NCBI RefSeq assembly: GCF_012027495.1
Contig: NZ_SNUK01000002.1
Coordinates: forward strand, 1-64,000
Source: Thermococcus sp. JdF3
GTDB taxonomy: Archaea > Methanobacteriota_B > Thermococci > Thermococcales > Thermococcaceae
Length of the DNA: 64,000 bases
Reading direction: 5' to 3'
Shown here: piece by piece, positions 54,964 through 62,190 of the stretch
How the letters are laid out: every line of letters starts with the position of its first letter
How positions within the stretch are numbered: the first letter of the stretch is position 1
The notes under the pieces: model-generated
Told to the model about the DNA's origin: nothing
The model's database searches: none
What the model saw: the letters and a program-made list of their open reading frames with translations, nothing else
Position numbers and translations under genes: made by a program

Positions 54964-55101
54964 TTTCCACAACCTCCGTGAGCCTAAACCAGCAGACGGA
55001 AATCGAAGCGGAGGATAAAAAGGCTTTCCCATTTATATGACCAGTTTTTCCTGATGATTCTGCGCAGGATAGCCCAAAATTATGAAAATTCTGCGGGGAT
55101 A

Positions 55102-55268
55102 ATGGTTAAAACCCCGGAGAGAGATATAACTCCGATGAGGAATATCGCCGACCTGCCCCTCCACGGCGGCCACGTTCCGGCGTGGCTGGCCCAGAGGATG
55201 AGGAAGCTCACCCGGTTAGTGCTGGTTCTGGCGGTTGAGGAGTACGGAACGAAGGGACTCCTGAAGAC
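55102..55268 (+). pseudogene. N-terminal remnant of a DUF763 gene
   Basis: Reads RNIADLPLHGGHVPAWLAQRM...[14 protein letters not shown], the N-terminal end of DUF763 proteins (which run several hundred residues). At about 55266 the frame passes into CobT sequence in the wrong frame and stops at 55338. More than three quarters of the gene is missing. Start ATG 55102 or 55135. Confidence 0.7.
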
Positions 55269-56162
55269 GTGCACGTCAGCGACGCCATTGGGAGAGACTT
55301 CAGAAGGGGGCCGGCTTTACCCGAGTTCGGCGAGATAATAAAGCGCGCCAAGCTGTTCGGCGAGGAGCTCAACAAACTGCCGGTCAAAGAGCTGGTCATC
55401 GGGGAATCAACGCCCGGAGGAACGACAACCGCTCAGGCTGTCCTGTGGGCACTCGGCTACGACGCGAAGACCAGTTCAGCCTCGCCCAACAACCCGCAGA
55501 GCCTCAAGGAGAGGGTAATCGGCGAGGCCTTTGAGAGGGCCGGAATCGGGAAAGGTCAACTGAAGGACAACCCGCTTGAGGCCCTGAGGCAGTTCGGCGA
55601 CCCCATGATGGCAACGGTGGTGGGTATTTCCCTCGGCTTCAGGAAGAACGTCGTCTTAGCTGGAGGAACGCAGATGTTGGCTGTTTCAGCCCTTCTAAAG
55701 GCCCTCGGCGAGGATTTAAACAGGTTCATGATAGCGACCACCAAGTGGGTGGTCAACGACAAAAGCGCGACCTTCCTCAAAACGGCGAGGGAAATCGGGA
55801 TAATAACTTATTCCGCCGACCTCGACTTCTCCAAGAGCGAGTTCAAGGGGCTCAGGGACTACGAGAACGGGTACGTCAAGGAGGGCGTCGGCGCGGGGGG
55901 AGCGACGTGGCTGGCCGTTAAGGCGGGTTTCTCGCCGGAAGAGGTGAGCGAAAAGGTCGAGGAGCTTTACAGGAGGCTCATGGAGATGAAACCGTCTTTT
56001 GAGGAGTTCGGCTTTTATTCCAGATTCAATGGCTTTCTCATACATCTCTTTGTCGTCGGTTACCAGTTTCTCGTTTGCTTTTATCTGCACATCCAGTGGA
56101 GAATAGCGAAAAATAAAAAGAGCAAGCTATGGCCTGTGGCATGTGGAAGAAGCAAGGGTTAA
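55269..56162 (+). pseudogene. Truncated CobT (NaMN:DMB phosphoribosyltransferase) gene
   Basis: Reads [60 protein letters not shown] and [15 protein letters not shown]: the core and C-terminal part of archaeal CobT. The N-terminal hundred or so residues are missing, replaced by the DUF763 fragment in another frame. Family-like sequence ends at LYRRLMEMK (55991); the remaining frame to 56162 is unrelated. Could be translated from GTG/ATG near 55269 but would lack the N-terminal half of the active site. Most likely non-functional. Confidence 0.72.
55992..56090 (-). pseudogene. Possible PIN-domain C-terminal fragment
   Basis: Minus-strand frame reads [30 protein letters not shown], which resembles the last helix-strand region of PIN proteins (VTDDxxMYEKA). 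It abuts the end of the CobT homology with no start or promoter. Weak evidence, based on pattern only. Confidence 0.35.
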
Positions 56163-56342
56163 TACTATGTCCATGGCAATGAGGGCTCCTAGGATCACCA
56201 GCGCTGTGGCGGGTTTTCCATATGCATACACAACTAAAGTAGCCGCTAGATAACCTGTCAACCGTTTGAGGAATGATGTTAAAGAGGGGGAATAGTTTTT
56301 GCAATATGCACCTATCACGGACCTGGCGTTATTGGCTCGCAT
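56127..56342 (-). CDS. 71-residue two-helix membrane protein, partner of the Cys-rich gene
   Basis: Reads [23 protein letters not shown] and [22 protein letters not shown]: two membrane helices with a basic N-terminus. ATG 56342 has GGAGGGTC upstream and lies 28 bases inside the end of the cysteine-rich gene, so the two are translationally coupled. Could be an immunity, export or anchoring protein; none is shown. Confidence 0.55.
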
Positions 56343-57022
56343 GTATGACCCTCCTCTCCGCAACATGGCCCGTTACAACAGAAACCCGCACATGTTAACC
56401 AACAGGGAACAGACCATGGCCAAGGTATCCATCCGCACATAGCAGCACATCCGGCAGATGCACATGCTGCCATACAAGTGTTACTTGAGCACGGTTCACA
56501 ACAGTATGAGGTGCATCTCTCAAGTATACCGCATGATTTCCCGCCCCCACATTCCTGAACACATGAATCTAGTGTTTTAAAGTTTCCGTTTATCATTAAA
56601 CCTTTGAGTTTAGTAGTGTGATTTTCTAAACTAACAACTTCCCCCAAGACCTTTACTCCCTGTACTGGCTTTGAGAATTCGTATAGTGCTATTACGTGCT
56701 TCTTGTCCTTCAGTGGAATTCCCATAGCGAGCATGGTTATCCTCTCACCATTGTACTCGATGGTGTGCTTGACAATCTTGACGTGGGAATAGTCAACGTC
56801 CCAGGGCTTTGCGAGCTTCCAGAAGTCCCGCGTAGTTGCGAGCTTGAAGAACATGTGCGCTTTAGACCAGTTCTCCTGAACCCTATCAATGGGCTTCGTA
56901 ACGGCAAAGGGGTTGACACAACCCTTGACCTCTGGATACTTGGGGTAGCTGACCACGTACGCTCCGTACGCCCCAATCAGCAGCAGGGCCACAAACACGG
57001 CCAGCAATGCACGCCTCCGCAT
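56315..57022 (-). CDS. Secreted cysteine-rich protein, halocin C8-like precursor candidate
   Basis: 235 residues. N-terminal signal or anchor helix (RRRALLAVFVALLLIGAYGAYVV), a soluble propeptide-like part (30-150), then an 82-residue C-terminus (154-235) with 18 Cys, including CC pairs and SSNTCMAACASAGCAAMCG...VPCWLTCAGFCC. The Cys spacing with a central Gly/hydrophobic segment recalls halocin C8, which is also cut from the C-terminus of a longer precursor whose N-terminal part gives immunity. ATG 57022 with a G-rich ribosome site; TATA-like GTTTATATACT (minus) near 57066-57080. Confidence 0.62.
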   Translation of the reverse strand: MRRRALLAVFVALLLIGAYGAYVVSYPKYPEVKGCVNPFAVTKPIDRVQENWSKAHMFFKLATTRDFWKLAKPWDVDYSHVKIVKHTIEYNGERITMLAMGIPLKDKKHVIALYEFSKPVQGVKVLGEVVSLENHTTKLKGLMINGNFKTLDSCVQECGGGKSCGILERCTSYCCEPCSSNTCMAACASAGCAAMCGWIPWPWSVPCWLTCAGFCCNGPCCGEEGHTCEPITPGP

Positions 57023-57206
57023 CGACCCCCCCAACGGGTTCTTGCATCCGTATTATAATAGGTTATAGTATATAAACGTTATCCAAACCAAAAGTTAACA
57101 ACCAAATCCAAGATGCACTTAATATTGCGAACAAAGCGCAGTATCTACTAAAAATTCATTCTGGATCCGATATTTCAAACTAGTGTCCAGCCCTGCGTCC
57201 ACCACG

Positions 57207-60876: not shown

Positions 60877-62190
60877 ATGAAGCGTTCGGTAACGGTCAAA
60901 CTCCAACCATCAAAGGAGCAAGAGGAGAAACTCCATCAGTTAGCCGACGCTGGAGCCAAAGTTTGGAATAGGGTAAACTACCTCAGGCGGCAGCAGTTCT
61001 TCCAGGGGCAAATCGTGGACTTCAACAAGACTGAAAAAACCGTTTACGAGGAGTTCAAGAAGGAAATCGGTTCTGCAACGGTTCAACAAATAGCGAGAAA
61101 GAACGCCGAGGCTTGGAGAAGCTTCTTCACCCTTGCAAGAAAGAAGCGGAACGGAGAACTCCCCACGTGGCTTAAACCAAAACCACCGAACTACTTGAAG
61201 AAAGACGGGAAGAGAAAACCCTTAATCGTCCTGAGAAACGACCAGTACCGGATTGAAGGGAGCAAACTCATATTGAAAGGCCTCGGGAAGTTCAAACGCT
61301 TGGAAATCCAGTTCAAGGGGAGAATACACCTGAAGGGCAAGCAGGGAAGATTAGAAATAATTTACGACGAAGTTAAACGCAAGTGGTATGCTCACATCAG
61401 CTTCACGGTGGAGGAGAAACTTGAAGGTGAGGAATGGGTTAAGCTCCCAAGGAAACCAAAGGGGAACCTTTCAGCGGGGATTGACCTTGGAGTGAACAAT
61501 TTAATGGCCGTTTACGTGGAGAATGGTCAGAGTTTTCTCGTGAATGGGAGACCGCTCAAGAGTATTGACTTCTACTGGCGGAAGAGGATTGCCGAGTATC
61601 AATCAAAACTCAACAAAAGTGGTGCTAAGACGAGCAGAAGGCTCAAAAGAATGCACGAGGGGGCTAAACTTCAGGCAAAGCACTACATTAATACCGCAGT
61701 TAGGGGAACAGTCCAGAGGCTCTACGAGTTGGGTGTTTCGAAAATCGTCGTCGGCTATCCAAAGGGAATTGCTCAAAACCCTGGGAAGGGCAAGAAGCAG
61801 AATTTCATCCTCTCTCACGTGTGGCGGTTTAACACGGTCATTAAACGTTTAAAAGAAGTCGCTGAAGAGTACGGTATTGTAGTTGAGGTTGTTGATGAGG
61901 CTTTCACTTCAAAGACCTGTCCCGTTTGCGGGAAGCCCCACGAGGGGGCGAGGTTCGTTCGTGGATTGTTTAAGTGTCCCGCAACGGGGCTTACTTTCAA
62001 CGCTGACTTAGTTGGAGCCTTCAACATTTTGAAAACGGTGGTGGGAACCATAACCCCAAATCTGAGCGGTCTTTACGCCCAGAGGAGGGGTAACTGGCCG
62101 AAGACCCGGCCAGAGGGGTTCGAAGAACCCTCTTCGAGGGTTGCCCTGATGAGAACCCCTCAAACCTCCCCGTCAATGGCGAGGGGTTAA
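60877..62190 (+). CDS. tnpB: IS200/IS605-family TnpB, RNA-guided nuclease (copy B)
   Basis: 437 residues, RuvC residues D203, E341 and D377, zinc-ribbon cysteines as in copy A with Thr at the fourth site (CPATG). It is 16 residues longer because the frame continues past the GFEEPS end of copy A. No tnpA lies beside it. Located between moeA and a CRISPR array. Intact, so presumably able to make nuclease; mobility would need TnpA in trans. Confidence 0.93.
   Translation: MKRSVTVKLQPSKEQEEKLHQLADAGAKVWNRVNYLRRQQFFQGQIVDFNKTEKTVYEEFKKEIGSATVQQIARKNAEAWRSFFTLARKKRNGELPTWLKPKPPNYLKKDGKRKPLIVLRNDQYRIEGSKLILKGLGKFKRLEIQFKGRIHLKGKQGRLEIIYDEVKRKWYAHISFTVEEKLEGEEWVKLPRKPKGNLSAGIDLGVNNLMAVYVENGQSFLVNGRPLKSIDFYWRKRIAEYQSKLNKSGAKTSRRLKRMHEGAKLQAKHYINTAVRGTVQRLYELGVSKIVVGYPKGIAQNPGKGKKQNFILSHVWRFNTVIKRLKEVAEEYGIVVEVVDEAFTSKTCPVCGKPHEGARFVRGLFKCPATGLTFNADLVGAFNILKTVVGTITPNLSGLYAQRRGNWPKTRPEGFEEPSSRVALMRTPQTSPSMARG

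Follow-up and report, generated by a model that had tools for sequence, protein, structure and literature searches.

Polymorphic toxins, e.g. CdiA with its immunity protein CdiI in contact-dependent inhibition (CDI) and the Rhs proteins, join a conserved N-terminal part to a hypervariable C-terminal tail that is swapped where the conserved part stops; an immunity gene specific for the tail lies next to it, and orphan toxin or immunity remnants are found downstream (PMC3482391). The same features appear around a gene pair in the first 64,000 nucleotides (nt) of contig NZ_SNUK01000002.1 of Thermococcus sp. JdF3, hereafter the window: behind a precursor ending in a Cys-rich tail comes a small membrane protein, the partner, whose coupling to the tail is genetic and suffers one exception (genome G017, see below). 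From the comparison of Thermococcaceae genomes we consider this pair to be, most probably, one allele of a polymorphic peptide-toxin/immunity system. The differences from CDI and Rhs are nevertheless marked: the carrier, thousands of amino acids (aa) long in those systems, has about 125 aa here, and the tail is a disulfide-rich peptide rather than an enzyme domain. Besides, the immunity candidates are multi-helix membrane proteins, and no dedicated secretion system accompanies them.

Archaeocins, among them the halocin C8 family (TIGR04449), likewise arise from secreted archaeal precursors that end in a Cys-rich peptide of some 80 residues. Halocin C8, whose precursor provides the immunity part in its own N-terminal half, has 10 Cys; in Thermococcaceae, by contrast, the tails hold 14–20 Cys, the N-terminal part is conserved across tail types and the element matched to the tail is a separate downstream membrane-protein gene, which speaks against an immunity domain in the N-terminal part. 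The kinship with halocin C8 that a preliminary description of this DNA had drawn from the architecture has to be given up: TIGR04449 matched none of the 28 members (E<=1) and nothing in the genome, while the control in Haloferax volcanii was found. Class II bacteriocins resemble the window pair as small secreted peptides with an adjacent small hydrophobic immunity protein, but the present loci are archaeal, show neither a double-glycine leader nor a nearby ABC exporter, and place a conserved domain of 100 residues ahead of the peptide. Finally, the VARTIG modules are also specific to Thermococcales, hypervariable, surface-exposed or secreted, shaped by recombination and proposed to act in conflicts; they are built on large immunoglobulin (Ig)-domain proteins, arCOG07710 (PMC8416519). 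An identity with VARTIG was rejected, since neither window protein matches an Ig domain or any other domain model, Pfam included, and the genes are arranged differently.

Searching whole genomes, we found matches to the precursor in 45 of the 94 Thermococcaceae genomes, about 30 of which hold an uninterrupted full-length copy, the others having remnants, pieces at contig edges or weak matches. The N-terminal part is under purifying selection, with a median ratio of nonsynonymous to synonymous substitution rates (dN/dS) of 0.08 over 84 pairs. This recurrence and this selection, together with a TATA box and a G-run conserved upstream, indicate that the precursor frame is not a chance one; its absence from relatives, which would have pointed to a spurious frame, was thus not observed. 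As far as we searched, the family is restricted to Thermococcaceae: the profile of the 28 members gave no match outside them among 115 genomes of the phylum. No relatives were found either in plasmid records, phage records or viral contigs, so that a carrier among mobile elements is without evidence. A 415-aa frame in G073 (L118:3860-5105, + strand) weakly matches precursor residues ~100–211 (E=3e-5), and may represent a longer carrier to which a related tail is attached.

The swapping of tails is invisible in a single window and emerges only when genomes are compared. Residues 1–124 of the precursor (the helix, then the domain with Cys35) give a gap-free and highly conserved alignment, and the identity between copies that otherwise differ stops at about residue 120–124. 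The precursors of the window and of G017 are 95% identical in the N-terminal part and 29% in the tail; those of G037 and G012, which belong to different genera, 98% and 41%; those of G080 and G074, 93% and 38%. In the swapped pairs the DNA identity drops from more than 90% to about 55%, with a sharp break near codon 120. The reverse case also occurs: G042 and G078, again from different genera, are 80% identical in the tail and 57% in the N-terminal part, and their partners are homologous. Swapped pairs and reverse case together show that tails move independently of the N-terminal part, and over the family the two similarities are almost uncorrelated (r=0.14). The tail thus forms a cassette with the partner gene that follows, and recombination where the conserved part stops exchanges this cassette.

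Behind all the full-length copies surveyed stands a small hydrophobic membrane protein (71–136 aa, nearly all hydrophobic segments), which mostly overlaps the precursor by 4–31 nt or starts 10–18 nt past its stop; longer gaps are found in G052 (125 nt) and G090 (86 nt). In the window the overlap amounts to 25 nt and the partner has the ribosome site GGAGGAGGG; the start inside the 3' end of the precursor and the ribosome sites had been correctly noticed at the outset. The partner family tracks the tail (Pearson partial r=0.71 once the N-terminal similarity is removed, permutation p=0.0002) and not the N-terminal part (r=0.10). Among tails at least 50% identical, partners are homologous in 21 of 27 pairs at E<1e-3 and in 25 of 27 at E<0.05, whereas among precursors with an N-terminal part at least 85% identical and a tail below 50% this holds for only 1 pair in 69. 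The partners have diversified into many families, as the tails have. For the 71-aa partner, announced as a two-helix protein, the membrane character and two hydrophobic stretches stand, but only one of them passes a strict hydropathy cut-off; two helices are likely but not proven.

Behind the active pair, in the same orientation, follow additional partners of other types: G060, for example, has three such types, and G052, G061 and G089 have one each. Arrays contain up to three or four different orphan partners. Where a remnant tail lies immediately 5' of a partner, the two usually match in type (G049, G058, G070, G072). The JdF3 genome itself carries a second, decayed cassette 15 kb away at the tldD site (G000:C2:71900-72586, i.e. 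L070:7901-8587, minus strand), outside the window. It holds a tail remnant and an open partner frame, both of the window type, the latter sharing 60% identity with the 71-aa protein, as well as a G054-type partner. Besides, open partner frames are kept in genomes devoid of toxin (G004, G008, G013, G014, G015, G023 and G086), and the pair from G004 and G008 displays a dN of 0.186 against a dS of 0.751. Partners of the G051 type occur at toxin loci only; those of the G054 type are also found alone at other sites. In the toxin-free G015, two identical orphan partners occupy two sites (L146:3020-3409 and L147:3061-3450).

The swap of tails, the membrane partner matched to each tail, the orphan partners and the partners kept without toxin lead us to the toxin-immunity reading, and speak for the secreted antimicrobial-type peptide with a dedicated partner that had been proposed from the window alone. 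The conserved N-terminal part, a signal/anchor helix and a domain of ~100 residues, carries a tail of ~70–90 residues whose Cys count is even. The precursor would be exported by the Sec route and the tail would fold outside the cell with 7–10 disulfides, to be displayed on the membrane or freed by a cleavage near the Asn-Gly motif. It could then harm the membrane of close relatives, or a target in this membrane, while the 71-aa protein in the membrane of the producer would block the matching tail only; the membrane nature of the immunity candidates points to the membrane as the place where the toxin would act. After a cassette exchange the displaced partners stay downstream as orphans, and might protect against tails formerly carried or still met in neighbours.

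It seems moderately probable, further, that Thermococcaceae own a whole class of polymorphic disulfide-rich archaeocins, with a dozen or more tail types, whose toxin and membrane-immunity cassettes spread between genera and settle at few conserved sites, mostly beside TldD/TldE genes, the products of which might mature the precursors. To our knowledge few antagonistic peptides have been described in hyperthermophilic archaea, despite their dense communities at vents. If our reading is true, these archaea would offer heat-stable disulfide peptides in large, diverse and predictable array, together with the immunity genes that match them, and the exchange of toxin tails and immunity genes known from bacterial CDI and Rhs would also operate on a very small precursor, of bacteriocin size. 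The host order includes genetically tractable laboratory species, and the family would make competition between archaeal kin directly testable.

Several observations weigh against this interpretation. In its tail G017 shares 61–68% identity with G089 and G083, yet its first partner differs, being of a short three-helix kind that elsewhere comes last in arrays. No dedicated exporter or protease common to all sites was found, no sequence model recognises any member, and no activity is known for any of them. AlphaFold2 gave poor models, with a predicted local distance difference test score of 48 for the full precursor (9 sequences) and 65 for the tail (8 sequences), and Foldseek returned no fold match for the tail model; we therefore claim no fold for the tail. 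The comparative pattern would also fit the main rival, a polymorphic peptide signal and its cognate membrane receptor serving kin recognition or quorum sensing, which would co-vary as in the pherotype systems of Gram-positive bacteria. The strict coupling and co-transfer of tail and partner, and the embedding of the latter in the membrane, agree with such a pair. However, neither a kinase nor a response regulator nor any other output gene is common to all sites, proteins of 71–136 aa made nearly entirely of hydrophobic segments are unusually small for receptors, and arrays of three or four different orphan partners suit immunity better; we hold this rival to be improbable.

We see only a slight chance that the precursor is a variable surface protein (adhesin, decoy for virus receptors, or support of antigenic variation), the partner being a chaperone or a membrane anchor for the tail: its N-terminal anchor helix, its hypervariability and the chromosomal allelic exchange would be explained, but neither the intact partners of tail-free genomes nor the diversification of partners into many families. 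As for a tail binding metal or acting in redox reactions, with a transporter as partner, the many Cys and the several CC and CxxC pairs invite this idea. It is however very improbable, as the number of Cys is even in all intact tails and their positions differ between tail types, as the protein is predicted to be extracellular, where disulfides form, and as no metal-protein model matched. In the toxin-immunity interpretation that we prefer, the even counts, i.e. 14, 16, 18 or 20 Cys in every intact tail of the family, are those expected if each Cys sits in a disulfide.

The features of the locus are collected in Table 1; the coordinates, the lengths of precursor and partner, and the length, Cys count and position of the tail first read from the window were borne out. 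The helix first described as signal or anchor is indeed conserved, but the part then likened to a propeptide is the conserved part of the family.

Table 1. Features of the precursor/partner locus (window coordinates).
Feature	Position	Strand	Remark
Toxin precursor (predicted), open reading frame, 235 aa	56318..57022	-	stop codon 56315-56317; homologues in 45/94 Thermococcaceae genomes
Signal/anchor helix, N-terminal, residues 1-24	56951..57022	-	MRRR and hydrophobic run; helical in low-confidence model; conserved in alignment
Extracellular carrier/pro-domain (predicted), conserved, residues 27-124; sole invariant Cys is C35	56651..56944	-	
Asn-Gly N145-G146, near-invariant, directly ahead of the tail; candidate processing point	56585..56590	-	
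Disulfide-rich tail (predicted toxin), hypervariable, residues 154-235, 82 aa, 18 Cys	56318..56563	-	
TATA box TTTATATACT of the precursor, 45-54 nt 5' of the ATG	57067..57076	-	conserved across loci
G-run ribosome-binding site of the precursor (GGGGGGG)	57026..57032	-	conserved across loci
Partner, small membrane protein of 71 aa cognate to the tail, translationally coupled; immunity function predicted	56130..56342	-	stop 56127-56129

At the other loci the promoter of the precursor likewise keeps a TATA box, 45–55 nt upstream, and the G-run ribosome site. Asn-Gly is invariant across the alignment of 28 sequences, a near-identical copy omitted from this alignment having N-E instead. The tails, which contain several CC and CxxC pairs, diverge around a common frame, roughly C-x3-C-x5-C...C-x3-CC...CC...C...C..G..C. 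Pfam, NCBIfam, PADLOC and PHROGs gave nothing significant for precursor or partner, and a sequence search of the PDB brought up, for the core of WAP (four-disulfide-core) peptides, only omwaprin-a, a snake WAP peptide, over 29 residues and at a non-significant E=0.27. This likeness comes from the C-x2-D-x-D-C spacing at profile residues ~151–179. No curated model searched names the family, and the literature searched does not describe it; it appears novel, with the reserve that Makarova et al. 2019 (mBio), on archaeal polymorphic toxins and archaeocins, was outside that search and may list it.

The sites occupied by the cassettes are few and conserved: the side of tldD/tldE, the commonest in two genera, the cbiZ-cobT interval, as in the window, and some single sites; others adjoin adenosylhomocysteinase, Elp3 and AOR genes. 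The genes that we take to be tldD/tldE, adenosylhomocysteinase, Elp3 and AOR are named from the look of their sequences, the model search backing cobT and cbiZ only. The genes most often found next to members of the family are TldD/TldE genes in divergent orientation (L072, L073, L074, L076, L077, L084, L089, L091-L095 and others), which could encode a maturation protease or merely mark an old insertion site. In E. coli, TldD/TldE cleaves the leader of microcin B17 (PMC5810440). By analogy, a role in maturing the precursor can be imagined; it is speculation, because the enzyme takes unfolded peptides, the precursor starts with a signal/anchor helix, and tldD/tldE are absent from other sites.

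The rearrangement scar reported beside the pair was found again: the window cobT (55054-56162, + strand) is broken: compared with relatives at the same site it lacks its first ~95 codons, in place of which another gene's start is joined out of frame, and its frame overruns the usual end by ~55 codons. A deletion next to the cassette could explain this break, as could an assembly fault. At 60877-62190 (+ strand), 4 kb from the cassette, the window carries a presumably TnpB-like gene, and a gene similar to it adjoins an orphan partner in G055 (L154:3070-4095).
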